From: a virus
Length of the DNA: 22,444 bases
Virus record (IMG/VR): IMGVR_UViG_3300037264_002731
Location: 1 to 22,444 of that record
Strand: one strand, 5' to 3'
Both the position numbers and the translations under genes were made by a program. Under the pieces are notes generated by a model. It saw only the letters and a program-made list of their open reading frames with translations, was not told the DNA's origin and did not search any database. Shown piece after piece: positions 5,421 to 20,548 of this stretch (positions are counted from its first letter, which is position 1; each line of letters opens with the position of its first letter).

Positions 5421-6512
5421 ATGGACGATGACTATAGCTGGGATATGGACTGGGGAGCGGCTGCGCAGCCTACCTTCGCAGGTAGCTTTAACATAGGCCA
5501 AGCTGGCTCAGGTTATAACCAGTACAGAATCTCGCCGGAAGCAGACTTGAACTTGAGCCCGAGTGATCCCGCAAGTGCGTACTACCAGCCTCCTTACAAC
5601 CCCGCCTCAGGGATTGACCCTCGCACTCTTCCCCAGGGAGGGGGCTTGTACTCTGTGGGGGATAATGCTTGGAATTCTCTCTATGCCCCAGGAGGGGGTT
5701 CTAGTAGCTTTAGTCCAGAGGCTTACCAGCCCGCAAGCTATGCTCAGCCTCCTGCCGGTCAGACTTATACTAGCATGTTGGAGCAGCAGAAAGAGCAGGC
5801 ATCAGCTGCTCTTATGTCTTTACTACCTCAAGGCGCCAGCAGCGGTGGTGGCTTCACTGGGGGAGGCACTCAGGCTGGAGGAGGAAGCCGCCCCTCTAGT
5901 GGAGGGGGAAGCAGCAGCTCCTACACTCCCCAACCCTACCAACGCATCCAGCTCGGTGCCCCCGAGCGCACGCTCTACGACCGTTACAGTAGCCTCCTCC
6001 AGAACCCTGAGGGCATGTCCCTTGATCCGGCCTACAAGTTCCTCTTCAACCAAGGGATGCAGGCTTTCAACCGCTCGGCGGCCGCCAAGAGAATGAGAGG
6101 GGCAGGAAACAGCGCGGCTGGGGCTACTTCCTTCGGCCAAGGCCTTGGCTACGACTACATGAACAAGATGCTTCCCCAGTACCAAGCAGGGGCGCAAGAG
6201 GAGCTCCGACGGTTCATGGGGCCGGCGGGCTTGCTCCCCCAGTACACCGGAGCCAACAACCAAGTGACCTCCAAGGAAGGCTCAGACGCCGCGAGCAAGG
6301 ACCTTCTCCCTTACTACCAGCGGATGCTTGAGCAGGGGATGGGAGGGGGCAGCCAGCCAACAGGCGCAAGTTGGGGAGGCCTGACTGAGAGGCCTGCTTA
6401 CACCCAGCCTCGACTGCAGGCGGGTATGGCTCTGGGCGGCTCTCCAAGCTACAGTCCTCCTCCCTTTGATTGGCTCGCCTTCAACGAAGGTGACTATGGG
6501 CAGAACTTCTAG
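5421..6512 (+). CDS. Probable internal virion / DNA-ejection protein
   Basis: 363 residues, ATG with AAAGGAG seven bases upstream. The first 170 residues are low-complexity and rich in Gly, Ser, Pro, Tyr and Gln. Residues about 178-270 form a helical domain with Tyr-Asp-Arg-Tyr, Asn-Pro-Glu-Gly and then Asp-Pro-Ala-Tyr-Lys-Phe-x-Phe-x-Gln-Gly-Met-Gln-Ala-x-Asn-Arg-Ser-Ala-Ala-Ala. That pattern recurs in small ejection-type proteins of podoviruses (P22 gp7-type position). The C-terminus is again disordered-looking. It lies between the tail hub and two larger helical proteins, the usual place for ejection proteins. Function is inferred from motif and order; no catalytic motif is visible. Confidence 0.5.
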   Translation: MDDDYSWDMDWGAAAQPTFAGSFNIGQAGSGYNQYRISPEADLNLSPSDPASAYYQPPYNPASGIDPRTLPQGGGLYSVGDNAWNSLYAPGGGSSSFSPEAYQPASYAQPPAGQTYTSMLEQQKEQASAALMSLLPQGASSGGGFTGGGTQAGGGSRPSSGGGSSSSYTPQPYQRIQLGAPERTLYDRYSSLLQNPEGMSLDPAYKFLFNQGMQAFNRSAAAKRMRGAGNSAAGATSFGQGLGYDYMNKMLPQYQAGAQEELRRFMGPAGLLPQYTGANNQVTSKEGSDAASKDLLPYYQRMLEQGMGGGSQPTGASWGGLTERPAYTQPRLQAGMALGGSPSYSPPPFDWLAFNEGDYGQNF

Positions 6513-6521
6513 GAGAGTGTG

Positions 6522-7550
6522 ATGCCGGGCTACAATGAGACGATGCTGCAAGGAATGCAAGGTGTGCTCCCCCAGATCATGGGGCAGAGGCGCTTGCAGG
6601 AGCAGCAGCAGCAGCGAGCTTGGGAGAGGCAGCTGCAGGCTGCCCAGCTCCAGCGCCAGTATGAAGTGATGCAGCTCCAGGAGCAGAACAGGGCCCAGCA
6701 GCTCTCCATGCAAGAGGCCAACCAGCGGAGGCTGCAACAAGGGATGCAAGATGCTGGCTCGCAGAGGAACCTCGCCAATGAGATGAGGATGATGGGCCTG
6801 CGGCTGCAGGAGAGGGGACAGAATCAGCCTTCCTATGGGGCACCGGAGAACCTGGTGACGGAGGGTGGGGAGCCCATGCGAGTCTTGCGAGATAGCAAGA
6901 CAGGTTCCCTCATTGAGGAGGGGAGTAGGCAGCCAGTGCCGACAACCCGGCGCTTGCTCTCTCCTATGCGGGAGGATGAACTGAAGGACATCAAAGGAAG
7001 CTTTGATGAAGTGCAAGCAGCAGTGGACGCACTAGCCCTTATGAAGGGGAGGAAGGTTGGAGGGCAGAGGGGAGACCCCACCGCCACAGGCTGGGAGGGC
7101 TACGTGCCGGAGGCCGCCCAGACCCTCCTCACACCAGAGAAGGGAGGCATCCTGAGCAAGCTCACTGGTGGAGGCCTCATCGGAGCGATGGGGGGAGAAG
7201 CTGGAGTAGCTACTCGGTCCTCCATAGCGAACCTCTCCACAATGAAGACGAAGGAACGCTCGGGTGCCACAGTGACTCCCTCTGAGTGGGCTCGCCTCAC
7301 CCCTTACATCCCTACAGACAAGGACAACGCAGATGTGGCAAGGGTGAAGCTCCAGCGGTTCATCACAGAGTATGCGAACTTGCTGGAGGGGAAGATGTCC
7401 ACGTACAAGGCAGCAGGCCGGCCCATCCCCAAGCCGATGGCTCAGCTCGCCAACCGCGTGGTGTCCCAGGCTCGCCTCACTGCGAAGGGGGAGCAAGGCT
7501 TGAGCCCCTCAGACCTTAGGGCCCTGGAGAGCATCTATGGAACCCAGTAG
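6522..7550 (+). CDS. Probable internal virion / ejection protein with coiled-coil N-terminus
   Basis: 342 residues from the ATG at 6522; AGGAGAG at 6511-6517 suits this start better than the GTG three bases earlier. Residues 20-105 are almost entirely Gln, Arg, Glu, Leu and Met in heptad-like order, predicting a long coiled coil. A short middle segment (Arg-Val-Leu-Arg-Asp-Ser-Lys-Thr-Gly) resembles a hairpin found in phage internal proteins. The C-terminal half is helical, with Gly-Ala-Thr-Val-Thr-Pro-Ser-Glu followed by Tyr-Ile-Pro and an Arg-x-Lys-Leu-x-x-Phe helix, a pattern shared by large podovirus ejection proteins. It overlaps the next gene by 14 bases. Exact role not recognised. Confidence 0.5.
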   Translation: MPGYNETMLQGMQGVLPQIMGQRRLQEQQQQRAWERQLQAAQLQRQYEVMQLQEQNRAQQLSMQEANQRRLQQGMQDAGSQRNLANEMRMMGLRLQERGQNQPSYGAPENLVTEGGEPMRVLRDSKTGSLIEEGSRQPVPTTRRLLSPMREDELKDIKGSFDEVQAAVDALALMKGRKVGGQRGDPTATGWEGYVPEAAQTLLTPEKGGILSKLTGGGLIGAMGGEAGVATRSSIANLSTMKTKERSGATVTPSEWARLTPYIPTDKDNADVARVKLQRFITEYANLLEGKMSTYKAAGRPIPKPMAQLANRVVSQARLTAKGEQGLSPSDLRALESIYGTQ

Positions 7551-9693
7551 CCTAGAGGGGAAGAGAGAGATTGCCAAGCAAGCTGGCTTCTCTGAGGAGC
7601 AGATCCAGGCGTATGAGCTGAAGATGCAGGGGGGAGCCAAGCCTGGGGGAGGCTGGGGAGCCCCTGCCACCACGGAGGAAGATGTCCGTCGGAGCACTGA
7701 GCTTGTGAACCCAGAGGCCGCCGGTGCCCCCTTCAAGGTCCGTGCAGTAGACAGTCTCATGCGGGGCTTGTGGGAGCCAGAGCAACGCCTCAACTACATG
7801 CAGCGCACGTTTGGACCTGAGAAGGTAAGGGTATCCCAAGGAGGGGATATCATCTGGAAGGATGAGCAGGGCGGGGAGCACCCCATAAGTGGGAAGAACT
7901 GGGAGGCCGGGGATCTGGGTGCGGTGGTGGGATACTTGCCAGAACTCGCTGGGATGGTGATAGGCCCCCTTGGGAAGGCGAAGTGGGGGGAGAGAGTGAA
8001 GGGGGCGGTTGTTGGGGCTACTGTGGGGGATGTGGCTCGGCAGGTGGCTGGCAGGGTGTCCTCCGGCGAGCCCATAGAGGAAGAGAAGTCCTTCCAGAGC
8101 TTGCTGGGGGCAGCAGCTGCTGGTGGAGTGGGGCAAGTGATGGGAGAGGCCGCCAGTGTTCCCTCCATGAACCCTGTGAAGATGCTTGCCCAAGCTGCCA
8201 ACCGCCGGGTCCAGACTAGCGAGCATAGCGCCTTCTCCGAGAAGATGAAAGGGATGCAGGAGAGGCAGGAGTTCCCCCTCTCCTTCTACCAAGAGACTGG
8301 TGGGGACTTCGCCAAGATGCTGGAGGGCTTCACTGGTCGCACAGCCTTTGGCCGCCTCGCTGCAGAGAAGCTCCCCCACGAGCAGAACACAGCCGCCTTC
8401 GCTCGAGCCCAACGCTTCATCGAGCTGCTGGGGAAGAGGCCAGAGGCCTTGGCGGATGAGAATGTGGGGCTGGCGCTAGCAGAGACTGGTCGCAAGGCTG
8501 TGGATGATGTCCTGACTGGGATGCAAGACACAGCAGCCCAGTACTTCAACTTCCGTTCCAAGGTACTAGGGAAGGATAAGAACATTACCCCAGGGAACTG
8601 GAGCCAGACTCTGCGCGAACGCGCGAAGGAGTACCGCCACTATGGAGACAGGGCGAGCCTCAGCACAGCGAAGGAGCTGGAGGCGATGGCTGAGGACCCA
8701 GCCTTCGCTCAAGGGATGAGCGCGGCCACCATCCAGCACAAGCTTGCCCAGTACAACGCTCGCAGCTATGGGAAGGAAGGGGATAAGCTGTTCCAGACGT
8801 TGGACACTGCCGCGAGTGTGGAACTGACCAAGAAGCTGCATGAGGCCCTCAAGAAGGACTTGCTGGAGGAGGTATCGCCGGCGGCTGGCAAGCCAAACCT
8901 CGTACCCAAGACTGCGAGCCTCGCCCTCCAACAAGGCCTCCGCAAGTATGGGGAGGAGTCTGGACTCCTCCACCAGCTTCGGGCCACTCCCATCCTCAGC
9001 TTGCTGGACAAGCGGGGGCTCCTCAAGAGGGATGCTCCCCAAGTAGGTGCAGAGGCTGTGCCCCAGGCCCTGAGGGAGGGAATGAAGACTGGGAAGATCA
9101 CTCCCTCTGAGATGAGGAACACGATACGGCTGCTGCAAGCCACAGACCCCTCCCTTGCAGATACATTCACTGGGAGCATCATCCAGGATGCCATCCAAGC
9201 CGGGCTGGAGAAGGGAGCCACCCAACCTTGGAAGTTTGACAGGGAGGCCTTCCAGCAGGCTCTCCCTCACCCCCGCTACCTTGAGGCGCTGTATGGGGAT
9301 GTCTGGAACCGAGGAAGAAAGACTCGCGGCCTTCAGATTGTGAGTGACTTGAACGAGCTGAGCCAACTCATCAGGCGGAGTGCAGAGAAGATTGGGATAG
9401 GCATACCAGAGACTCCTACCACGACTATAGGTTCTATGCTGCACCGGATGCTCACTTCTCCCATCAGTGCTATAGGGCAAGCTTCCTACAAGCTCGTGGC
9501 CCCCTACGAAATCTCCAAGGTGATGACGAATCCGAAGGCGCGGAGAGAGACAATGGAGTGGCTGGAGAGGGCCGCCAGCGGACAAGTCTCCACAGAGGCT
9601 AGAGTGCGTAGGCAACTAGGGAGGGGAGCTGCCCCAGGAGCCGAGGCCCTCCTCCGCCCAGGCATCCCACCAGCCCCCTCCGAGGACCAGTAG
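7537..9693 (+). CDS. Large probable internal virion / ejection protein
   Basis: 718 residues; the ATG lies inside the end of the previous gene, with a GGAGAG core about seven bases upstream. The protein is mostly amphipathic helix. Residues about 121-174 are the least polar part, rich in Gly, Ala, Val and Leu (Leu-Pro-Glu-Leu-Ala-Gly-Met-Val-Ile-Gly and a Gly-Ala-Val-Val-Gly-Ala helix). Such a segment could insert in or cross a membrane, as ejected P22-type gp16/gp20 and T7-type core proteins do. The rest has long charged helices, and the tail is Pro/Ala-rich. No lytic transglycosylase or peptidase motif was found. Length, composition and position before the tail fibre support an ejection role, but this is inference. 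Confidence 0.5.
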   Translation: MEPSSLEGKREIAKQAGFSEEQIQAYELKMQGGAKPGGGWGAPATTEEDVRRSTELVNPEAAGAPFKVRAVDSLMRGLWEPEQRLNYMQRTFGPEKVRVSQGGDIIWKDEQGGEHPISGKNWEAGDLGAVVGYLPELAGMVIGPLGKAKWGERVKGAVVGATVGDVARQVAGRVSSGEPIEEEKSFQSLLGAAAAGGVGQVMGEAASVPSMNPVKMLAQAANRRVQTSEHSAFSEKMKGMQERQEFPLSFYQETGGDFAKMLEGFTGRTAFGRLAAEKLPHEQNTAAFARAQRFIELLGKRPEALADENVGLALAETGRKAVDDVLTGMQDTAAQYFNFRSKVLGKDKNITPGNWSQTLRERAKEYRHYGDRASLSTAKELEAMAEDPAFAQGMSAATIQHKLAQYNARSYGKEGDKLFQTLDTAASVELTKKLHEALKKDLLEEVSPAAGKPNLVPKTASLALQQGLRKYGEESGLLHQLRATPILSLLDKRGLLKRDAPQVGAEAVPQALREGMKTGKITPSEMRNTIRLLQATDPSLADTFTGSIIQDAIQAGLEKGATQPWKFDREAFQQALPHPRYLEALYGDVWNRGRKTRGLQIVSDLNELSQLIRRSAEKIGIGIPETPTTTIGSMLHRMLTSPISAIGQASYKLVAPYEISKVMTNPKARRETMEWLERAASGQVSTEARVRRQLGRGAAPGAEALLRPGIPPAPSEDQ

Positions 9694-12116
9694 TGGCCTA
9701 CCAGATACCCCCGCCACCTGAGGGACGCTTCGGTAAGTGGGCCTACCAGATGTGGGACTATATTGCTAAGAATAGAGGGGGGTACGCAGGGAACCTCGTA
9801 GGCTCCAACCCCATCACTGTGGGGACAGGAACCACTGGCACGTTCACCCTCGGCCATGATACCTCAGGAGTAGGGGCAGGCACCTTCGGCACAGGGCTCA
9901 CCTGGCCTCGTTTCAGCGTGGATGCAAGGGGCCACCTCGTCACAGCCACAGCCGGGGGCACCCTCGGTACATTCGCAAGTTTCGCTTCCCTTGTGGGGGC
10001 TGGAGACTTGCTTGGTACCACTACAACAAATACTTTCACTGGCGCACTGAGCACTACAGGAGTGGTAGCAGGCACTTATGGGAATGGAACCTCTGTGTCT
10101 CAGGTCACTGTGGACGCGAAGGGGCGCCTCACAGCTGCAACTGGAGTGAGCATAAGCTTCCCCACTCCTCGGGCTTTGGAGGCCACTGCTCCAGTAGCCA
10201 TAGCCACAGCTGCAGGCACCTACACAGTCTCCCACAACACAAGTGGAGTGGGAGCAGGGACCTACGGTGGAACCTTGGGGTCTCCCTCCCTCGTAGTGGA
10301 TGCGAGGGGACACCTGACAAGTGGCACTTCAGTACAGCTCCCAGCAGCAAGGGTATCTGTTCCCTACTTGGGGTCTGCAACTTACCAAGACGCGGATGAC
10401 ATGCTTCGCTTTGTGGCAACTGCGGGCCTCATCATGGGGGGCACTTTAGCCGCAGCAGGTACAGCAGCCTTCACTGTGGGTACTGGTCAAGGAGCCATTC
10501 GTACCTCCAACAGCATCACAGCGGAAATAACCTTCTTCGACTTTCCAGCCCTGAGTACTACAGCTATCCCAGTGAACGCTGTTCGTTATGTAGGGGTGGA
10601 GTACAACGCAGGCACTCCCCAAGTAGTAGTCCACACAGTAGATGATTGGAATTACTACAGTGACTTCCCAGTGGGGATGGTGGCGAATCAGGGGAATGTC
10701 ATCCATGTTAATCAAGATGGAAGGCTGCTTCCAGACCAAGTAGGTCGCCTCATCCGCCGGTTTTATGGGACACTCCCCTATGCAAGGGATGAGAGGCAAG
10801 GGGGGCTTGTGTTGGGGGAAGGTGGTACTAGGAACTTTACACTCAGCGCAGGCACCTTGTGGGATCGCTCAGTGGACTTCACCATCGCGGCCCTTAACAC
10901 AGCTGTGGCCGGCTCCTTTGATGCGTACTACAGGGATGGAGTGGGAGGCTGGACTGGAGACCTCGCCCGCACTCAGTGGCCGAACACCCAGTATGATGAT
11001 GGTAGTGGTACACTTGCCACCCTACTGAACAACAACAGATGGGCGGTGCTGTGGTTCTACTTGGAGACAGATGGACAAGTCGTGATGTTGTATGGGCAGG
11101 CTGAGTATACTACGCAAGCTGCTGCAGCTGCAGAGGGCTCTCCCTCCACAGTACCAGCTCGTATCACAGCCAGTGGCCGCATCCTTGGTAGGTTCATCTT
11201 CCAGAAGTCGGCCACTACTGCTCACAGTATTGAAAGTGTATGGAACGTGGAGTTTACTGCAGCTGGAGTATCTGAGCATGGAAACCTTGCGGGGCTGGCT
11301 GATGACGATCATACACAGTACCACACAGATGCGAGGGCCCTTACTTGGGCCACCACGAACCTTGTGGGGACAGCTCCGATTGTTGTCAGTACAGTAGGAA
11401 CTACGGGCCTTATCTGGTCGCATAGCACAAGTGGAGTAACTGCGGGTACTTATGGGAACGGCACAGCTGTCAGCCGAGTAACAGTAGATGCTCTGGGGCA
11501 TCTCGCTGCAGTCTCCGCTGTTGACATAGCCTTCCCAAGTCCCCGAGCCCTTGAGGGAGCAGCTCCCATTGCGATAGCCACAGCTGCGGGGACGTACACA
11601 GTCAGTCACGACACAAGTGGAGCCAGCGCAGGAACCTATGGGGCCGCGATGGTCACAGCGCAGCTCGTAGTGGATGCCCTCGGCCACGTCACCAGCGCAG
11701 CTAACTCAGGAACCTTGGGAACCTTCGCAGGGTTCAACAGTCTTGCAGCTGCAGGCTACATTACAGGCACCACCACTACAGGCACCCTCACGGCAGCCTA
11801 CGCTGGTACACTTGTGGGAGCTGGAGACGTGCTCGGCACAAGCACCACAGGTACTTTCACAGGAGCCTTGAGCACCACAGGAGTGGCAGCAGGCACCTAT
11901 GGAGCAGCCTCCCTAGCAGCCCAGCTCGTAGTGGATGCTAAGGGACGACTAACCTCTGCCACAACTGTGGCAATAGCAGCGTCTCTTCCAGATAACCTAA
12001 TTGCCGCTTCTGGTACTGTGGGGAGCAACAAGAGCTACATAGTAGGTCACCGCCTGGAAATCTCCAGCGGTATTAACTGGGAAATAGGGAGCGCAGGCAT
12101 TGCGATGATACTATGA
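9693..12116 (+). CDS. Tail fibre protein with repeated beta motifs
   Basis: 807 residues; the GTG shares a base with the upstream TAG (TAGTG) and GAGG lies about eight bases before it. Six copies of a tail-fibre repeat are present (Ala-Gly-Thr-Tyr/Phe-Gly, about nine variable residues, then Val-Asp-Ala-x-Gly-x-Leu/Val) near residues 59, 122, 182, 579, 642 and 729. Between the two sets lies a 350-residue module with Val-Arg-Tyr-Val-Gly-Val-Glu-Tyr-Asn, Arg-Asn-Phe-Thr-Leu-Ser-Ala-Gly-Thr and Tyr-Asp-Asp-Gly-Ser-Gly-Thr-Leu-Ala. It closes with His-Gly-Asn-Leu-Ala-Gly-Leu-Ala-Asp-Asp-Asp-His-Thr-Gln-Tyr, a recognised element of phage fibre and appendage proteins. The short N-terminus (Trp-Ala-Tyr-Gln-Met-Trp) probably attaches to the tail. 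Receptor specificity cannot be read. Confidence 0.8.
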   Translation: MAYQIPPPPEGRFGKWAYQMWDYIAKNRGGYAGNLVGSNPITVGTGTTGTFTLGHDTSGVGAGTFGTGLTWPRFSVDARGHLVTATAGGTLGTFASFASLVGAGDLLGTTTTNTFTGALSTTGVVAGTYGNGTSVSQVTVDAKGRLTAATGVSISFPTPRALEATAPVAIATAAGTYTVSHNTSGVGAGTYGGTLGSPSLVVDARGHLTSGTSVQLPAARVSVPYLGSATYQDADDMLRFVATAGLIMGGTLAAAGTAAFTVGTGQGAIRTSNSITAEITFFDFPALSTTAIPVNAVRYVGVEYNAGTPQVVVHTVDDWNYYSDFPVGMVANQGNVIHVNQDGRLLPDQVGRLIRRFYGTLPYARDERQGGLVLGEGGTRNFTLSAGTLWDRSVDFTIAALNTAVAGSFDAYYRDGVGGWTGDLARTQWPNTQYDDGSGTLATLLNNNRWAVLWFYLETDGQVVMLYGQAEYTTQAAAAAEGSPSTVPARITASGRILGRFIFQKSATTAHSIESVWNVEFTAAGVSEHGNLAGLADDDHTQYHTDARALTWATTNLVGTAPIVVSTVGTTGLIWSHSTSGVTAGTYGNGTAVSRVTVDALGHLAAVSAVDIAFPSPRALEGAAPIAIATAAGTYTVSHDTSGASAGTYGAAMVTAQLVVDALGHVTSAANSGTLGTFAGFNSLAAAGYITGTTTTGTLTAAYAGTLVGAGDVLGTSTTGTFTGALSTTGVAAGTYGAASLAAQLVVDAKGRLTSATTVAIAASLPDNLIAASGTVGSNKSYIVGHRLEISSGINWEIGSAGIAMIL
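9867..10320 (+). repeat. Tail-fibre repeat block 1 (three Ala-Gly-Thr-Tyr-Gly motifs)
   Basis: Three diverged copies of the fibre repeat lie here, joined by Leu-Val-Gly-Ala-Gly-Asp and Thr-Ala-Ala-Gly-Thr-Tyr-Thr-Val-Ser-His segments. The same linkers recur in 11427-11970, so the two blocks derive from one ancestral array, although the bases have drifted. Confidence 0.75.
11427..11970 (+). repeat. Tail-fibre repeat block 2 (three Ala-Gly-Thr-Tyr-Gly motifs)
   Basis: This is the second block. The part at 11541-11632 corresponds to 10166-10258, and 11818-11903 corresponds to 9998-10083, so the shared units occur in a different order in the two blocks. Confidence 0.75.
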
Positions 12117-13904: not shown

Positions 13905-14305
13905 TAACGTATAGAGAGGGATACAAGTACCAGCTTGTGAAGCCCTACACTCACTTGCTCAAGACAGCTATCCGACCGGCGGCCTTCGTAAATGCTGGAT
14001 TCCTCCGCTTGGATACAGGAGGAGAACTCTACATCATTGGAGGATATGCCTGGGATGGACCCTCGGGGCCGGCCTTCGACACCCCTAGCTTCATGCGAGC
14101 GAGTCTTGTGCATGATGCGCTCTATCAGCTTATGCGGGAGGGGCACCTTCCCTTGAGCTGGAGGGACGAGGCGGATGAGGAGATGAGGTTTGTGTGCCTG
14201 GAGGCTGGGATGTGGTCCCTCCGTGCGGCGTGGTGCTACCAAGCTGTGCGGAGCTTCGGCGGGCCGGCGGCCTCTGTGCCAGATCCTGTACTGACTGCGC
14301 CATGA
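13901..14305 (+). CDS. DUF1353 family phage protein
   Basis: 134 residues from the ATG at 13901, which overlaps the endolysin TGA and has GAGGGAG about five bases upstream. The family signature is clear: Gly-Tyr-Ala-Trp-Asp-Gly-Pro-Ser-Gly-Pro at residues 48-57, then Ala-Ser-Leu-Val-His-Asp-Ala-Leu-Tyr at 67-75 and a Trp-Arg-Asp-Glu-Ala-Asp helix. DUF1353 proteins are common near phage lysis or tail genes and have no established biochemical role. The conserved His-Asp pair and Gly-Asp loop could be a catalytic or metal site, but that is conjecture. The C-terminal fifteen residues are Pro-rich and not conserved-looking. Confidence 0.75.
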   Translation: MITYREGYKYQLVKPYTHLLKTAIRPAAFVNAGFLRLDTGGELYIIGGYAWDGPSGPAFDTPSFMRASLVHDALYQLMREGHLPLSWRDEADEEMRFVCLEAGMWSLRAAWCYQAVRSFGGPAASVPDPVLTAP

Positions 14306-14706
14306 GCCTCGTCCTCGCAAATGGCTGTTTCGATGTGCTCCACGCCGGCCACCTTGCCCACTTGAAGGAGGCTCGGAGCATGGGAGGGGAGCTGTGGGTG
14401 GCACTTACCCTGGATGAGTTCGTTGGCAAGGGACCTGGGCGGCCTATAAACTCCTGGAGGGATCGAGCAGCCCTCCTCACAGAACTTCGCTGTGTGGATA
14501 GAGTGCTTCCTACAAGGAACGCTGTGGAAGCTATCCTTCAAGTGAAGCCCGCGGTCTTCGTTAAGGGAGTAGACTACGTGGGGGGTCACCGCTTCACGGA
14601 AGATATAGCTAGTGCTTGCTTGCAAGTCGGTGCAAGACTGTGCTATACTACCGCACGGAAGCAAAGTGCCACTGACATCATTCGGCGTTCACTGGAGACA
14701 GCATGA
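14302..14706 (+). CDS. rfaE2: Stand-alone heptose-1-phosphate adenylyltransferase-like protein (HldE C-domain / RfaE2 type)
   Basis: 134 residues, ATGA overlap with the gene upstream. The nucleotidyltransferase fold signature is complete: Ala-Asn-Gly-Cys-Phe-Asp-Val-Leu-His-Ala-Gly-His at 6-17, holding the HxGH site, then Arg-Pro-Ile-Asn-Ser at 47-51, Phe-Val-Lys-Gly-Val-Asp-Tyr at 86-92 and Ser-Ala-Thr-Asp-Ile-Ile-Arg at 122-128. In HldE this domain joins ATP and heptose-1-phosphate to give ADP-heptose. The matching kinase and isomerase lie on the other strand at 19721-20548 and 19327-19734, which makes heptose a likelier substrate than glycerol-3-phosphate or ethanolamine phosphate. It is co-transcribed with late genes. 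Family sure; substrate inferred. Confidence 0.8.
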   Translation: MSLVLANGCFDVLHAGHLAHLKEARSMGGELWVALTLDEFVGKGPGRPINSWRDRAALLTELRCVDRVLPTRNAVEAILQVKPAVFVKGVDYVGGHRFTEDIASACLQVGARLCYTTARKQSATDIIRRSLETA

Positions 14707-14969
14707 GCCTAGAAGGTATAGACACATATGATATGCTTCAAGATGGAGTATGGGCTGTTGACCACTTGGTTACAGACGTGACACAGACAATCCGCGTTAT
14801 TGTTCGCTGTGAAGAAGGCATCCCAGATGACATTCAAGCAAAGTGCCTGTTCGACTTTGAGACTAATCTGCGCCAGCGAAGTGGGCTTGATGTGTGGGTG
14901 CTGAAAGAAAGGATGGCCGACGACAGCCGCCTGCGAGTTGTGACTGATATGAGGCGGGCGAAGAAATGA
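14703..14969 (+). CDS. Small protein of unknown function in the sugar cassette
   Basis: 88 residues, joined to both neighbours by ATGA overlaps, which argues that it is translated. I do not recognise it. It is acidic in the first half and basic at the end, with beta-like segments (Thr-Ile-Arg-Val-Ile-Val-Arg, Leu-Asp-Val-Trp-Val-Leu, Leu-Arg-Val-Val-Thr-Asp) and no membrane segment. The predicted beta-alpha-beta pattern would suit a small partner or accessory domain. Its position between the adenylyltransferase and the radical SAM gene hints at a role with one of them. No motif supports a specific function. Confidence 0.6.
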   Translation: MSLEGIDTYDMLQDGVWAVDHLVTDVTQTIRVIVRCEEGIPDDIQAKCLFDFETNLRQRSGLDVWVLKERMADDSRLRVVTDMRRAKK

Positions 14970-16099
14970 ACGAGGTCGCGCAGGAGATGACAGCAAAGCT
15001 GATCCTTGACTCGACTAAGGTTGGCTGGCACAGGGAGCGAGTGGAGGCTTGGCACAGGGGAGAGAGGGTTGCCCCCATCACGATGGACATAGCCTGGACA
15101 CGTCGCTGCAACGCGGCCTGTGACTTCTGCGCAGCCAAGACGCAGGCTTCCGCCTCTCCCTCTCTGGACATACCCAGGGACGTGGCCTTTCAATTCCTTG
15201 AGGACGCCGCCGAGATAGGAGTGAAGGGGATCAGTCTGATCAGCGATGGAGAATCTTCGCTGGTTGACTACTACGCGGAGAGCATTGAGTATGCGGACAA
15301 GCTGGGGATCAAGGTAGGCCTCGGGACCAACGGCATAAACTTTGACCGTGCTTTGCTAGAGCGCATCTTGCCCCACGTCACTTACATGAGGTTTAACTTC
15401 TCGGCTGGTGAGCGCAAACGGTACTCTGAGATCATGGGGGTCAAGGAACCTATCTACGATCGAGTGATAGGCAACATTAAGGACGCTGTTGATATTGTGA
15501 GGACCGGCGGCCTGCAGACGAACTTGAACATGAACCTTGTGAGTGATCCGAAGGATGGAGACCAGCTCATGCCGTTCTCCAGACTGGCGAAGAAGCTAGG
15601 AGTCCACTACGGCATCATCAAACACTGCTTCGTTGATGATGATGGGATGCTCAAGGTGAAGGTGGAGGACTATCCGAGGGTAGTAGAGATAATGAAGGAG
15701 TGCGAGAAGCTGTCTGAGCCTGATGGGAGCTTCAGGCTGGTAGCAAAATGGAACCGGATTGGGGAAGGCTCCAAGCGAGAATACAAGGAGTGCTATGGGG
15801 CTCAGTTCATCATGCAGATGTCGGGCAACGGCTTGGTTGCGCCCTGCGGGCCCTTGTTCTCTGAGAAGTTCAAGGCCTTCCACATCGGCAACATTATGAG
15901 GACTCGGTTTAAGGACCTTTTCCACTCCGATCGCTACGCTGAAGTGATGAACTACCTTGGAAGCTCCCAGTTCAACGCATCAAAGCGCTGTGCTGAAAAC
16001 TGCCTCCAGCACCACACGAATGACTGGCTTTACAAGTTTAAGGCTGGGCAGCGAACCTTCCCGCTGGCGCCGGCCCCTGCTCACTCCGAGTTTATCTAG
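14966..16099 (+). CDS. Radical SAM enzyme with C-terminal SPASM-like cysteines
   Basis: 377 residues, ATGA overlap with the gene upstream. Cys-48, Cys-52 and Cys-55 in Cys-Asn-Ala-Ala-Cys-Asp-Phe-Cys form the CxxxCxxC site that holds the 4Fe-4S cluster cleaving S-adenosylmethionine. A Ser-Asp-Gly-Glu-Ser-Ser segment near residue 93 is in the place of the usual SAM-binding GGE strand. The C-terminal third has further cysteines near 276, 294, 342 and 346 (Gly-Asn-Gly-Leu-Val-Ala-Pro-Cys-Gly, Arg-Cys-Ala-Glu-Asn-Cys), as in SPASM/twitch domains that bind an extra cluster. Related enzymes appear in bacterial surface-polysaccharide clusters as well as peptide modification. Here its neighbours are sugar genes, so a sugar or lipid-linked substrate is more likely. 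Substrate unknown. Confidence 0.8.
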   Translation: MNEVAQEMTAKLILDSTKVGWHRERVEAWHRGERVAPITMDIAWTRRCNAACDFCAAKTQASASPSLDIPRDVAFQFLEDAAEIGVKGISLISDGESSLVDYYAESIEYADKLGIKVGLGTNGINFDRALLERILPHVTYMRFNFSAGERKRYSEIMGVKEPIYDRVIGNIKDAVDIVRTGGLQTNLNMNLVSDPKDGDQLMPFSRLAKKLGVHYGIIKHCFVDDDGMLKVKVEDYPRVVEIMKECEKLSEPDGSFRLVAKWNRIGEGSKREYKECYGAQFIMQMSGNGLVAPCGPLFSEKFKAFHIGNIMRTRFKDLFHSDRYAEVMNYLGSSQFNASKRCAENCLQHHTNDWLYKFKAGQRTFPLAPAPAHSEFI

Positions 16100-16866
16100 G
16101 CCCCTCTGAAGACTAAGTGGGGCCAGGTCTGCTCCACATGCCTTCCATCCCGGCGGATCACAAGCTCCGCTACAGCTTCAAAGGCCCCAATACAGCTAGA
16201 GGTTAAGGGGTCATCGAAGACGAGGTAGCCCTCTGGGGTAAGGGAGCCACAAGTCCCTTCATAGCACTGGGCCACAGACTGGTACAAGTCACAGTCCACA
16301 TGGGCGAGGAGCAAGGGGCCCAGGCTTGGGAGAACCCGCGGTACAGTTTCCTCAAAGAACCCCTTCACAACCTCTACATGGTGATGCATGTTGCAGCCCT
16401 TGGCGAGGCTCAGCATTTCGTGCTCTGTGTGGGTGAACTGGCCTTTCACATGGGCGTCGAGCTGGGGGTGGGCCGGCGGCATTCCTTGGAAGCTGTCGAA
16501 GCAGAATACCTTAGTCCCCGGGAGAAACTCCATCGCGAGGCGAGTGAGGAAGAGAGCTGAGCCTCCTCTGTCTGTGCCGAACTCCACGATGTGGCCCTTG
16601 CCCAGGCGAGGAAGGAAGAACTTGAACAGGAGGAAGAAGTTGCAGAGCTGGTCGTCCCCCACGGGGCTTTCAAGCTGCCGAGCTAGGGAGTAGGCTTCTG
16701 TGAAGACTGGATCACCTGCGCAGAGTTGCTTGATACCTCCGAACTGTATGCCTGTCCCTCGAAGGTAGCCCTCTCGAAGATTACGTCCTTGGGATAGCAC
16801 ATCTGGCATAGCAGAGATAGCTTCCTCGTGGTGAGCTATGGAGAAAGTCCAGTCACCTAGTTTCAT
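16096..16866 (-). CDS. TylF/MycF-like O-methyltransferase
   Basis: 256 residues from the ATG at 16866, one base after the glycosyltransferase stop; a TTG at 16905 is possible but lies inside that gene. Class I SAM-methyltransferase elements are present: Ile-Val-Glu-Phe-Gly-Thr-Asp-Arg-Gly-Gly-Ser at 93-103, Asp-Ser-Phe-Gln-Gly-Met-Pro-Pro at 124-131, His-Val-Asp-Cys-Asp-Leu-Tyr at 189-195 and Phe-Asp-Asp-Pro at 217-220. These match the macrocin O-methyltransferase (TylF) family, metal-dependent enzymes that methylate sugar hydroxyls. The aspartates at 191, 193, 218 and 219 are candidate metal or substrate ligands. It is the last gene of the leftward operon, and its stop overlaps that of the radical SAM gene. 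Sugar methylation fits the context; the acceptor is unknown. Confidence 0.8.
   Translation of the reverse strand: MKLGDWTFSIAHHEEAISAMPDVLSQGRNLREGYLRGTGIQFGGIKQLCAGDPVFTEAYSLARQLESPVGDDQLCNFFLLFKFFLPRLGKGHIVEFGTDRGGSALFLTRLAMEFLPGTKVFCFDSFQGMPPAHPQLDAHVKGQFTHTEHEMLSLAKGCNMHHHVEVVKGFFEETVPRVLPSLGPLLLAHVDCDLYQSVAQCYEGTCGSLTPEGYLVFDDPLTSSCIGAFEAVAELVIRRDGRHVEQTWPHLVFRGA
16099..16124. repeat. GC-rich inverted repeat at the convergent operon junction
   Basis: GGCCCC and GGGGCC, 14 bases apart, start at the last base of the radical SAM stop codon and lie within the end of the methyltransferase gene. The stem is only six pairs and neither side has a T-run, so terminator function is doubtful. It is the only structure I see where the two operons meet. 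Confidence 0.4.
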
Positions 16867-16867
16867 A

Positions 16868-17767
16868 CTAAGCAGTCTTGAAGGGGATGGGAGGCACTTG
16901 GGCAAAGCTCATCTTCTGGCGGGTGTTCACCCAGCTGGCGCTGCGGTCGAGGATGGCACTTGCGAGGGCCTGGACAGCATCCTCCCTCCGGAGGCCGGCG
17001 GCATACATCTTCGCAAGCGTAGCGTAGTGACCAGCCATCACTTGGAAGTGCATCAGTTCCTCTAGTTGAAGGCGCTGGGGGCTGTTCTCTGGGTGCGCTC
17101 CCCAGATGCTTTCCAGGCCTGTGTTCTGGGGGCCGATGACCCGGCGGTAGCAGTGAGCTCGGGTGTGGGAGTACCAGGCTCCCTTGTCAAGACACGCGAG
17201 GAGGGGGAGGACGACATCTGGACTCCCCACACCACTCAGGCCGCCGACCTTGTGGAAGAACTCTGCGGACCAGGACTGGATGGTGCTCCCTCCCACAAGC
17301 TTGGGGAACATCTCTTCCACCTTGCACCAGCCATCCTCCTGCGGCCAGGGAGTCTCTCCTTGGTACTCCATCTTCTCACTGACGTAGTACATCCCTCCAA
17401 GGACCATGCTGGGCTTGTGGACCTCGAAGGCCGCCGCCACGAGTTCCACCCTCTGGGCGAGGTCGTAGTCATCCGCGCTAAGGCTCACTACCACATCCGC
17501 ATCTGTCTGAGTCATAGCCCAATTTATGTGCTCGTTGAGGCCAGGCATACCCCTAGGGGCCACCACTGGGCATTGTAGGCGACGTACTGTGTGGGGGCCA
17601 CCATAGGTACGGGCGAGGTCATCCATCACCGCCCCGGTGCCATCCACAGAACCCTGGTCGCTGAGGAGGATCTCCAGGGGCTTGTATGTCTGCATGAACA
17701 TGCTCTTCACAGCATCCCCTACGTAGCGTACCTTGTCGCGAGCTGTGAGGAGGTGGGCGATCTTCAT
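16868..17767 (-). CDS. Family 2 glycosyltransferase
   Basis: 299 residues, ATGA overlap with the upstream ThDP gene and no good ribosome site, so probably translationally coupled. A GT-A fold start is clear: Ile-Ala-His-Leu-Leu-Thr-Ala-Arg at 3-10, Gln-Thr-Tyr-Lys-Pro-Leu-Glu-Ile-Leu at 26-34, Ser-Asp-Gln-Gly-Ser-Val-Asp-Gly-Thr at 36-44 and Ser-Ala-Asp-Asp at 97-100 as the metal-binding DXD equivalent. No membrane segment is present, so it is cytoplasmic or peripheral. Such enzymes move a sugar from a nucleotide donor to a growing glycan or another acceptor. The neighbouring genes suggest an ADP-heptose-derived donor, which is inference. Confidence 0.85.
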   Translation of the reverse strand: MKIAHLLTARDKVRYVGDAVKSMFMQTYKPLEILLSDQGSVDGTGAVMDDLARTYGGPHTVRRLQCPVVAPRGMPGLNEHINWAMTQTDADVVVSLSADDYDLAQRVELVAAAFEVHKPSMVLGGMYYVSEKMEYQGETPWPQEDGWCKVEEMFPKLVGGSTIQSWSAEFFHKVGGLSGVGSPDVVLPLLACLDKGAWYSHTRAHCYRRVIGPQNTGLESIWGAHPENSPQRLQLEELMHFQVMAGHYATLAKMYAAGLRREDAVQALASAILDRSASWVNTRQKMSFAQVPPIPFKTA

Positions 17768-18852
17768 GGGAGGAGAGGGCTCATCTGGTCCATCCGCGGG
17801 CGGCTTCCATCAGGCAAGGGCTGCAAGCGGGGGACGAGGGGCTGCTGCGGGTCCATGTGGTACACAACGAGGGCTGGCTCCTTCAGGGCGAAGAGCTGGG
17901 GGATGGCTTTGTTGAAATCTGCCCATGAGTAGATGTCTGCGCTGTGGAGGCCGAAGTCTTGGGCCAGGCGGCGGAAGTCAGGGAGGCTCATCCCACTCCC
18001 TGCATCCACAGAGGTATGCTTGAGCTTGCCAAGCTTCTGCGTGTGCTTGATCATTAAGTATCCGTCGTTCTCATACACGATGATCTTGATGGGGAGCTGG
18101 TGGTGGGCGATGGTCTGCAGCTCCTGCAAGTTGAGCATCATCCCGCCATCTGCGTGGAGGCAGAGGATGTGCTCTGCGCCAGCAAAAGCCGCACCTATAG
18201 CAGCTGGGAGTCCGCAACCCATCTCCCCTAAGCCTCCACTCGTCATGAGGCGCTGGGGAGGTTTGAGACGGAGGACCTGATGGGCAGAGATGAGGGGAGC
18301 TCCCATGTCAGTCACCACAACGTGCTTGGGATGGAGGAAGGGTTCCAAGGCAGCGGTGAAGCAGTAGGAGTTTATCCACTTCCCACTGTCCTTGTGCTCC
18401 AGCCAAGGCCATTGCTTGTTCCATGCCTTGCACTGGGCGAGCCACTCAGGCCGTGAAGCTGGTTCGAGAGCTTGGCGGATGAAGTAAGAAATGTCGCTTG
18501 AGGGATTGGCGGCCCCGAGGCGAGCTGCCTCGCTGGGGTCACAATCCCCCATGAGGACTTGAGGCTTGTGATCGAGGCCTTGCTCAGAGATGTTCCACAC
18601 ACTCAGCCTGTTGCCAAGGGCAAGGATCTGGTCAGCCTCAGAGAAGGCCTTGTTCGCGGCCCTGTTCCCATAGACTCCTGTGCAGCCAAGGAACGCAGGG
18701 TGGTAGTTGTCCACAAGGTCCTTGGCTGGCCAGCTAGCGGCCACTGGGAGGCCAAGGTCTAGGAGCATGGGAGCGAGGTCTTGGCAGCCGGCGGCTCGGA
18801 TGCCGTGGCCCAGCATGATGAGAGGGCGCTTAAGCCAGAGCACTTTGTTCAT
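17764..18852 (-). CDS. Thiamine-diphosphate enzyme, central + PP domains (C-terminal subunit of split acetolactate-synthase-like enzyme)
   Basis: 362 residues from the ATG at 18852, overlapping the PYR-domain gene by 23 bases. A further upstream in-frame start is possible but would overlap more. Residues 1-130 match the central domain of acetolactate-synthase-like enzymes (Lys-Arg-Pro-Leu-Ile-Met-Leu-Gly-His-Gly, Tyr-Gly-Asn-Arg-Ala-Ala-Asn, Ala-Leu-Gly-Asn-Arg-Leu-Ser). Residues 160-340 are the PP domain: Ser-Gly-Gly-Leu-Gly-Glu-Met-Gly-Cys-Gly-Leu-Pro, then Ala-Asp-Gly-Gly at 234-237 and Asn-262 about 25 residues later. The usual Gly-Asp-Gly that binds diphosphate through magnesium is Ala-Asp-Gly; the key Asp and Asn remain. 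YerE in Yersinia, a relative, adds a two-carbon branch from pyruvate to a nucleotide sugar; similar carboligation is a reasonable guess. Confidence 0.8.
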   Translation of the reverse strand: MNKVLWLKRPLIMLGHGIRAAGCQDLAPMLLDLGLPVAASWPAKDLVDNYHPAFLGCTGVYGNRAANKAFSEADQILALGNRLSVWNISEQGLDHKPQVLMGDCDPSEAARLGAANPSSDISYFIRQALEPASRPEWLAQCKAWNKQWPWLEHKDSGKWINSYCFTAALEPFLHPKHVVVTDMGAPLISAHQVLRLKPPQRLMTSGGLGEMGCGLPAAIGAAFAGAEHILCLHADGGMMLNLQELQTIAHHQLPIKIIVYENDGYLMIKHTQKLGKLKHTSVDAGSGMSLPDFRRLAQDFGLHSADIYSWADFNKAIPQLFALKEPALVVYHMDPQQPLVPRLQPLPDGSRPRMDQMSPLLP

Positions 18853-19330
18853 CCTTGGGGAAGTCAAGCCAGACTGGACCTTGGCGGGGGGAGAGGGCAC
18901 ACTGGAGGTCAGCAGCTAGCTCAGGGAGGTGGAGAGGGAGGGCTCGCTTGGTGAAGTGGGCAGCAACATCAGCACTCTCGTATCCCTGGAAGCCAAATCC
19001 ACGACCTTCATCCTTGTAGTACTTGGAGGCCTCGTTGCCGCTTATGACGAGGAGAGGGATGGAGTCCATCCAGGCAGCCATCACTCCTGTGATGACGTTC
19101 GTGCTGCCGGCCCCCGTGGTGACGAGGGTGAGGGCCATACGCCCCGAGGTGCGGAAGTAGTAGGCTGCAGCCATCGCAGCTGCTTGCTCGTGATGGCAGC
19201 ACACGAGGCGAGTGTAGCCTAGCCTGGCCACTGCATCCCAGAGGGTGACGTTCCCTCCCCCAATGATGCCGAAGGAGTGGGTGATCTCCTTGGCCTTGAG
19301 CCAGCGAGCTACAGCTTCTGCTTTCGTCAC
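18830..19330 (-). CDS. Thiamine-diphosphate enzyme, PYR domain (N-terminal subunit of split acetolactate-synthase-like enzyme)
   Basis: 166 residues, GTG start overlapping the SIS gene stop (GTGA). The whole protein is a PYR domain: Phe-Gly-Ile-Ile-Gly-Gly-Gly-Asn at 20-27, Cys-His-His-Glu-Gln-Ala-Ala at 45-51, Thr-Thr-Gly-Ala-Gly-Ser-Thr-Asn and Asp-Ser-Ile-Pro-Leu-Leu-Val-Ile-Ser-Gly. Glu-48 is the conserved glutamate that activates the thiazolium ring. The chain ends Gly-Pro-Val-Trp-Leu-Asp-Phe-Pro, exactly where full-length enzymes pass into the linker before the central domain. The next gene starts within the last 23 bases in the +1 frame. The two products would have to assemble to give an active site. 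A frameshifted single gene is the alternative. Confidence 0.8.
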   Translation of the reverse strand: MTKAEAVARWLKAKEITHSFGIIGGGNVTLWDAVARLGYTRLVCCHHEQAAAMAAAYYFRTSGRMALTLVTTGAGSTNVITGVMAAWMDSIPLLVISGNEASKYYKDEGRGFGFQGYESADVAAHFTKRALPLHLPELAADLQCALSPRQGPVWLDFPKDEQSALA

Positions 19331-19734
19331 GCTGGATTCCCCTGCAGCCAGCGCATCACGCAGTGGCCCTCGTATACTTGCAGCTCCTCGCTGGCCTGCA
19401 TATCGTAGCCTCTCACCGCACCAAAGAGGGGCCAGACTTCCATCCCCTTCTCGGCGGCCTTGCCGAGGGCCTGAAGAATGTTTGGTGACTTCCCACTACC
19501 ACTGAGGGCAAGGAGCAAGTCGCCTGGTTCTCCAACAACATCGAGCCAACGAGCGAACACAGTTTCATAACCGAAATCATTTGCGCTCGCTGTGAGTGTG
19601 GCAGGATCAAGGGTATACGCTTTGACCCCACATGCAAGTAGATCGTTGCAGATGTGCACTGCGTTGGCATACGAGCCTCCATTACCTATGATATAGACGC
19701 GTTTGGCTGCACGTATAGCCTTAGCGAGGTCCAC
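19327..19734 (-). CDS. gmhA: SIS-domain phosphosugar isomerase, GmhA-like
   Basis: 135 residues from the GTG at 19734, chosen because GCGGAGG lies six bases upstream; the gene then overlaps the kinase by 14 bases. SIS signatures are intact: Ile-Ile-Gly-Asn-Gly-Gly-Ser-Tyr-Ala-Asn-Ala at 15-25, Leu-Asp-Pro-Ala-Thr-Leu-Thr-Ala at 42-49 and Leu-Ser-Gly-Ser-Gly-Lys-Ser-Pro-Asn-Ile at 77-86. In GmhA the domain converts sedoheptulose-7-phosphate to D-glycero-D-manno-heptose-7-phosphate. Bacterial GmhA is nearer 190 residues; here the N-terminal helical part is missing, so a different oligomer or an altered site is possible. The neighbouring heptose kinase supports the heptose role, but other phosphosugars are not excluded. 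Confidence 0.75.
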   Translation of the reverse strand: MDLAKAIRAAKRVYIIGNGGSYANAVHICNDLLACGVKAYTLDPATLTASANDFGYETVFARWLDVVGEPGDLLLALSGSGKSPNILQALGKAAEKGMEVWPLFGAVRGYDMQASEELQVYEGHCVMRWLQGNPA

Positions 19735-20548
19735 TGAATACCTCCGCTTCTGTGGCAACAGCAGTGCCGAACTTCCCACAGACAATGCCAGCGGCTTTGT
19801 TGGCGTACTCCACGCTGGTCCTCCAGTTCATCCCCCGGTTGAGGCACACAGCAAGGCAAGCGATGGCAGTATCTCCAGCCCCAGTTACGTCGTAGACTTC
19901 CTTAGTGATGGACTCCACGTGGAAGGTGCTGTTGTCGCTGTAGAGGCTCATCCCACCTGCTCCCCTCGTGAGGAGGACTCGTGCAATATCTGCCTCCCCT
20001 TTGAGAAGGGAGATCTTCGCGGCGAGCTGCTCCTCGCTTCCCCACCCTCCCATAATGTGGCGCATCTCGTCCAGGTTTGGCTTTACAAGGTCAGCGCCAG
20101 CGTACTTGCGGTAGTCATAGCCCTTTGGGTCCACGAGTACGAGCTTGCCGAGGGACTTGGCCTCCTTGATGAGGGTCTGGATGTGGATGAGGGAACCTTT
20201 CCCATAGTCGCTGAAGATCACTACTCCGCACTTGGGAAGAGCGTTGCGGAAAGTTCTCTCCATGCTGTCCACTCCCCTAGGAGGGAAGTCGAAGTCTATG
20301 CGGGCGACTTGCTGGTTACGTGCCACAAGGCGGATCTTGCGGGAGGTGCTGCAGACTGCGGTGTAGACCTCGCAGCCGAGGGCTTGGACGTTGGCTGCCA
20401 CGTTGTCGGCGGCCCCGAAGCGGTCCTCCTGCCTCGTCACGAGCACTACAGGGACGGGGGCCTCTGGGCTGATGCGGGCAACATCCCCAAACCAATACTC
20501 GTCTACCATCGCATCCCCACACACAAGGATAGGCTTAAGGGAGCTCAT
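19721..20548 (-). CDS. rfaE1: PfkB-family heptose-7-phosphate kinase-like protein (HldE N-domain / RfaE1 type)
   Basis: 275 residues; the ATG has AGAGGAA about ten bases upstream. HldE kinase-domain signatures: Val-Cys-Gly-Asp-Ala-Met-Val-Asp-Glu-Tyr-Trp-Phe-Gly at 9-21, Arg-Ile-Ser-Pro-Glu-Ala-Pro-Val-Pro-Val-Val at 25-35, Arg-Asn-Gln-Gln-Val-Ala-Arg-Ile-Asp-Phe at 77-86, Asp-Pro-Lys-Gly at 140-143, Val-Lys-Pro-Asn-Leu at 155-159, and Asp-Val-Thr-Gly-Ala-Gly-Asp-Thr at 220-227 with the catalytic Asp. The family phosphorylates heptose-7-phosphate at C1. Compared with E. coli HldE, about 30 residues are absent between positions 65 and 70, just before the Lys-x-Arg strand. The nucleotidyltransferase half is a separate gene on the other strand at 14302. 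Confidence 0.85.
   Translation of the reverse strand: MSSLKPILVCGDAMVDEYWFGDVARISPEAPVPVVLVTRQEDRFGAADNVAANVQALGCEVYTAVCSTSRKIRLVARNQQVARIDFDFPPRGVDSMERTFRNALPKCGVVIFSDYGKGSLIHIQTLIKEAKSLGKLVLVDPKGYDYRKYAGADLVKPNLDEMRHIMGGWGSEEQLAAKISLLKGEADIARVLLTRGAGGMSLYSDNSTFHVESITKEVYDVTGAGDTAIACLAVCLNRGMNWRTSVEYANKAAGIVCGKFGTAVATEAEVFSGPR

Follow-up and report, generated by a model that had tools for sequence, protein, structure and literature searches.

The window analyzed here is the entire 22,444-bp IMG/VR viral contig IMGVR_UViG_3300037264_002731, and the analysis covers its phage up to the contig ends. It carries genes for a GmhA-like SIS isomerase, an HldE-N-type PfkB kinase and an HldE-C-type nucleotidyltransferase (NTase), which a preliminary description had located correctly, as profile and structure matches corroborate, and had read as an ADP-heptose pathway short of a single step. 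That reading is too narrow: the three genes form only part of a cassette that also includes a thiamine diphosphate (ThDP) carboligase, a radical S-adenosylmethionine (radical SAM) enzyme and a small conserved protein labeled SML (Table 1). In our judgement it is an evenly balanced proposition that this cassette makes a nucleotide-activated, C-branched and possibly heptose-derived sugar, which is then transferred by a GT2-type glycosyltransferase and O-methylated.

Conservation of the cassette in viruses and bacteria

A search with the radical SAM enzyme yielded 44 viral loci and 101 bacterial loci, of which the best 80 were analyzed, so that bacterial counts are not population frequencies. Neighbors were counted with our own profiles, built on six family members, which divergent versions could escape. 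Among the 45 viral contigs with the radical SAM gene, the kinase/NTase is present in 37, the SIS isomerase in 33, the ThDP enzyme in 41 and SML in 37, all four being found together in 29. Restricting the viral set to contigs with flanks of 6 kb or more on each side changes these counts to 24/25, 22/25, 23/25 and 23/25, with all four in 20 of the 25. Bacterial loci with flanks of this length show the kinase/NTase in 42 of 50, the isomerase in 30, the ThDP enzyme in 44 and the small protein in 44, and the bacterial polysaccharide loci hold the same set plus SDR epimerases and DegT aminotransferases. The kinase matches less than 0.1% of 50,697 phage records, and likewise the ThDP middle/PP domains.

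Compared with their relatives, the kinase, SIS isomerase, both ThDP chains, GT2, NTase, SML and radical SAM genes are under purifying selection (pN/pS 0.24-0.45), which, combined with the highly significant alignments, argues that the observation is not due to chance. Host contamination was ruled out, as genes for lysis/tail, primase, polymerase and portal proteins surround the cassette. A contig of a 'Sulfuricaulis' metagenome-assembled genome (L057:7704-11493) probably stems from a phage or prophage, because it bears a virus-type cassette and falls inside the viral radical SAM clade.

Kinase, isomerase and nucleotidyltransferase

The kinase scores 287 bits with the rfaE_dom_I profile, against an equivalog cut-off of 345, and its nearest solved structure is HldA (4e84, E=3.5e-91), aligned over the full length except for about 30 residues that the kinase lacks, a gap common to its viral relatives. 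For the SIS isomerase, the gmhA profile gives 82 bits against a cut-off of 209; the nearest structures are all phosphoheptose isomerases (GmhA), at about 2e-27, with the C-terminal part lying outside the structure alignment, and residues H44, D48 and H141 are invariant across four phages. Its start is the GTG at 19734, so that it overlaps the kinase gene by 14 nt; a TTG at 19785 was dropped as an over-extension. The NTase reaches 94 bits with rfaE_dom_II, the cut-off being 181.5. Given that none of the three attains its equivalog cut-off, the heptose assignment holds at the family level only.

A ThDP carboligase in two chains

Concerning the ThDP enzyme, the PYR chain matches JanthE (8rph) with E=3.1e-57 versus 3e-32 for acetolactate synthase, and the middle plus PP chain with E=1.3e-114 versus 1.5e-49, so that, as judged from sequence, JanthE is by a wide margin a nearer relative of both chains than acetolactate synthase. 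A carboligase of the YerE-like kind, JanthE takes ketones as acceptors and carries CDG in place of GDG (PMC12188165). The cassette enzymes also have the GDG replaced, by ADG in the window and by CDG in two relatives (L004 and L005), an N following in each case, and the PYR chain keeps the catalytic (activating) Glu within an HHEQAAA region whose HHEQ is invariant.

A single-chain YerE/JanthE-like enzyme is encoded in L100, L101, L106 and others, and two genes are found in the window, in its sister phage L002, and in L004 and L005. In these four contigs the second gene starts 14 nt before the first stop, which in the window corresponds to a GTG at 18843 (alternative ATG 18852) inside the upstream PYR gene. 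A frameshift or assembly error behind the split was ruled out, given that the overlapping start lies at the same place in four contigs that are 50-67% identical. Either ATG or GTG occupies this site in the homologous genes, which makes separate initiation of the two chains likelier than +1 programmed frameshifting at the stop codon. In another relative (L127:8274-8942), an open reading frame reading as an HNH endonuclease interrupts the ThDP gene between the middle and PP domains. A bacterial JanthE-type gene (L158) is located in a cluster like those for CDP-3,6-dideoxy-4-keto-hexoses, with neighbors that, read by eye, resemble RfbF/RfbG/RfbH.

The ThDP position of the cassette is not always filled by the same superfamily. 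YerE-like enzymes occupy it in 13 viral and 5 bacterial loci, E1 alpha/beta pairs in 27 and 41, and split transketolases in 1 and 11, the last type being that of the Campylobacterota relatives. On the radical SAM tree, obtained with a quick method and displaying several long branches and open forks, there are 11 changes of ThDP type, 6 of them among viruses, while shuffling gives a mean of 28; having fewer changes than the shuffle, the types would be inherited but repeatedly replaced. One replacement can be seen directly in the pair L005 and L006, whose terminase-like gene, kinase and SIS isomerase are 86% identical and whose radical SAM enzymes are 76% identical, with unrelated ThDP genes. 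The three superfamilies are those listed in a review as ketone-accepting or sugar-branching (PMC12247030).

Radical SAM enzyme and SML

The radical SAM enzyme presents the CxxxCxxC motif (C48/52/55) and auxiliary-cluster residues C276, C294, C342 and C346, the seven Cys being invariant in 37 sequences. Its AlphaFold2 model (pLDDT 91) was matched by Foldseek to SuiB, DesII, SkfB, BlsE and BtrN, of which DesII and BlsE are nucleotide-sugar enzymes. In L003, two different radical SAM/SPASM genes (8986-10017 and 14607-15707) flank the cassette on either side.

SML has no family match in Pfam, PHROG or NCBIfam. Homologues of about 60-90 residues lie just upstream of the radical SAM gene in about 30 viral contigs, and in a one-sequence search SML matches the C-terminal part of a bacterial protein of about 360 residues adjoining the same radical SAM gene (E=1.6e-9). 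The predicted SML fold is beta-alpha-beta-alpha with no significant fold match, which leaves a PqqD-like or RiPP recognition element-like partner unsupported (RiPP, ribosomally synthesized and post-translationally modified peptide). The 360-residue bacterial family (e.g. L030:8810-9973) also lacks a Pfam or NCBIfam match, is present in 59 of the 80 radical SAM loci, and stands directly before the radical SAM gene in the loci read closely.

Proposed route and alternatives

The proposed route starts with the SIS isomerase, kinase and NTase, which by family would act like GmhA and HldE, with a ketose phosphate as starting compound (probably sedoheptulose 7-phosphate) and an aldose linked to a nucleotide as product. 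The radical SAM enzyme, with its Twitch C-terminus, and SML may then act on the sugar, probably creating a ketone or a deoxy position. The two-chain ThDP enzyme would decarboxylate a 2-oxo acid, e.g. pyruvate, and join the acyl unit to the ketone to give a branched higher sugar; here the carboligase class comes from the sequence and the substrate is our suggestion. Finally, GT2 would transfer the product and the TylF-like enzyme would O-methylate it, the target most likely being a glycan of the host surface or a protein of the virion. The data fit lipopolysaccharide remodelling, virion glycosylation and DNA modification, the outcomes suggested earlier, alike.

Several observations weigh against this proposal. 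The best solved matches of the NTase are cytidylyltransferases, so ADP as the nucleotide is not secured, and the scores of the kinase, SIS isomerase and NTase all fall below the curated equivalog cut-offs. The absence of gmhB from the window, previously noted, extends further: GmhB was found in none of 24 related viral records (23-96 kb, possibly fragments) with GmhB controls detected, and neither was a HAD_2 phosphatase in the same records. A heptose-like route through heptose 1,7-bisphosphate therefore has to assume a host phosphatase or another substrate. These 24 records also hold no confident SDR epimerase or nucleotide-sugar dehydratase, only one weak SDR match; hence, if a ketone is needed, the radical SAM enzyme is the cassette-encoded candidate, and this role as ketone maker is the weakest link of the proposal. 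Its fold is undecisive, since SuiB, which modifies peptides, is the best Foldseek match and DesII scores almost the same. Moreover, no physiological substrate is known for JanthE (PMC12188165), and a ketone role of transketolases is a proposal (PMC12247030).

The order of the steps could also be the reverse, with the ThDP enzyme first combining a 2-oxo acid (e.g. hydroxypyruvate) and an aldose phosphate into a ketose phosphate, which the SIS isomerase, kinase and NTase would turn into a nucleotide sugar, ordinary or unusual, the radical SAM enzyme acting later and branching not being required. We regard this as unlikely, although several points speak for it: transketolase, the canonical maker of ketose phosphates, sits in the slot of the Campylobacterota relatives, the SIS isomerase requires a ketose phosphate, and the ThDP genes of the window directly follow the SIS gene. 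Furthermore, it needs no separate ketone-forming step, in keeping with the lack of a confident SDR in the viral records. On the other hand, pyruvate as donor would give a 1-deoxyketose, a compound not expected to be a substrate for an aldose-ketose isomerase of the GmhA type, and the nearest solved ThDP relative has been characterized as ketone-accepting (PMC12188165).

A plain supply of ADP-heptose that boosts or restores heptose for the host lipopolysaccharide core, using the host GmhB and with the other genes as unrelated neighbors, appears improbable. It would fit the family assignments of the kinase, isomerase and NTase, and cyanophages do have these three genes without this radical SAM enzyme, but the ThDP, radical SAM and SML genes constantly co-occur in viruses and bacteria, no GmhB or HAD is found in the related viral records, the scores stay under the cut-offs and the kinase is shortened. 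Still more improbable is that the radical SAM enzyme and SML modify a RiPP-like peptide which the sugar genes decorate. SPASM/Twitch enzymes are often peptide maturases, the best-ranked fold matches include SuiB and SkfB, and a small protein is encoded directly upstream of the radical SAM gene; however, the predicted beta-alpha-beta-alpha SML is without a significant fold match, its bacterial counterpart is one domain of a large protein, and the bacterial setting is that of nucleotide-sugar clusters.

Two-strand layout and apparent mosaic origin

Table 1. Cassette genes of the window, with coordinates, strand and profile evidence.
Feature	Position	Strand	Evidence
HldE-C-type nucleotidyltransferase (NTase), 134 aa	14302..14706	+	PF01467 3.6e-14; TIGR02199 7.1e-27
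Small conserved protein SML, 88 aa	14703..14969	+	homologues upstream of radical SAM gene; motif DDS(K/R)LR
Radical SAM enzyme, SPASM/Twitch C-terminus, 377 aa	14966..16099	+	PF04055 2.4e-12; PF13186 3.3e-6
TylF-like methyltransferase; start inferred at ATG 16866	16096..16866	-	PF05711 8.4e-15
GT2-type glycosyltransferase	16868..17767	-	PF00535 2.6e-11
ThDP carboligase, middle + PP domains, JanthE/YerE-like	17764..18843	-	PF02775 3.2e-31; PF00205 7.5e-19
ThDP carboligase, PYR domain as separate chain	18830..19330	-	PF02776 3.4e-29
GmhA-like SIS isomerase, 135 aa, short C-terminus	19327..19734	-	PF13580 3.9e-11; TIGR00441 4.7e-23
HldE-N-type PfkB kinase, 275 aa	19721..20548	-	PF00294 6.4e-27; TIGR02198 2e-85

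In the window, the cassette is divided into two arms that converge tail to tail, their stop codons overlapping on CTAG (16096-16099). Three successive ATGA overlaps chain the plus-strand arm to the preceding late gene, which has a PHROG match to a tail-assembly chaperone, and lysis/tail genes lie upstream; the minus-strand arm, made up of the kinase, SIS isomerase, the two ThDP genes, GT2 and the methyltransferase, comes closely after a DUF3987/primase gene. The kinase and NTase are thus on opposite strands, one on the replication side and one with late genes, as had been described. The suggestion built on it, that the split serves to regulate the timing of sugar synthesis, does not generalize: in L002 the whole cassette is on one strand with replication genes, and in L005 and L006 it lies between the terminase-like gene and the portal gene. 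A scan for promoters and terminators gave an outcome near chance level.

The two arms differ in their closest relatives. For the kinase, SIS isomerase, ThDP enzyme and GT2 of the window, L002 has the closest relatives, with 63-73% protein identity, the GT2 being 69% identical to the one that ends the L002 cassette. The radical SAM enzyme and SML are closest to L127 (69% and 61%, respectively), whereas L109, L110 and L114 have the nearest relatives of the NTase (57-61%), L110 having the same NTase-SML-radical SAM order as the window. Because of this difference, the cassette looks like a mosaic re-assembled from two sources, and the strand split is particular to this phage.

Two further observations concern the same phages. 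L002 encodes a family A DNA polymerase carrying a fused uracil-DNA-glycosylase-family domain (6119-8458), and the window encodes, at 9693-12116, a tail-fibre-like protein with repeated GTYG-type segments whose N-terminus is in common with the L002 fibre.

Relation to known systems and significance

Like the ADP-heptose pathway (GmhA, HldE, GmhB, HldD), the cassette clusters homologous SIS, PfkB kinase and cytidylyltransferase-fold NTase genes, but no GmhB or HldD was found, the kinase and NTase are separate genes, the kinase is about 30 residues shorter, and the constant partners are the ThDP enzyme, the radical SAM enzyme and SML. It resembles the YerE/JanthE C-branching of yersiniose and erwiniose (ThDP decarboxylase superfamily), since among solved structures JanthE is the closest to both chains, CDG or ADG stands instead of GDG and a bacterial relative lies in a dideoxy-sugar-like cluster; it differs in having the ThDP enzyme in two overlapping genes, HldE-type activation in place of RfbF/G/H, and a radical SAM enzyme. 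The E1 alpha/beta-like pair or split transketolase that fills the slot of relatives recalls alpha-KADH2 (AviB1/AviB2, KbDH) and the split transketolases of antibiotic clusters, unlike which the relatives' genes are in phage or surface-sugar loci beside HldE/SIS/radical SAM genes.

Phage-borne HldE/GmhA genes are already known, as the cultured cyanophages P-SSM2, S-CAM1, S-SM2 and P-TIM68 carry such genes. In P-SSM2 and S-CAM1 the NTase, kinase and SIS genes are neighbors amid tail-fibre genes, and in S-SM2 and P-TIM68 a ThDP gene of the E1 type accompanies the kinase, NTase, SIS, epimerase and alcohol dehydrogenase (ADH) genes. These clusters share with the cassette the close proximity of a short kinase, an NTase and a short SIS isomerase, but have epimerase and ADH genes in place of this radical SAM enzyme and lie on one strand. 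No paper on point for this gene set was found among open PMC papers, most subscription journals lying outside the search, and within the library searched the new element is the radical SAM/ThDP/SML unit. It is possible, although we lean against it, that the unit represents an undescribed C-branching route, in which activation is of the GmhA/HldE type, the radical SAM enzyme and SML substitute for an SDR dehydratase in forming the ketone, the branch is added by one of three interchangeable ThDP carboligases, and phages carry the whole as a compact module that they can re-assemble from parts of different origin.

Sugar genes of phages are usually taken as spare parts of host pathways. A conserved unit with a radical SAM enzyme and an exchangeable ThDP enzyme points to a defined product common to many phages and surface-polysaccharide loci. 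The cassette would provide a natural setting for JanthE-type enzymes, L005 and L006 would serve as a natural replacement experiment on the functional equivalence of ThDP superfamilies, and an uncharacterized protein family would be named as tied to the radical SAM enzyme. If the sugar reaches the host surface or the virion, it would have a bearing on superinfection exclusion and host range.

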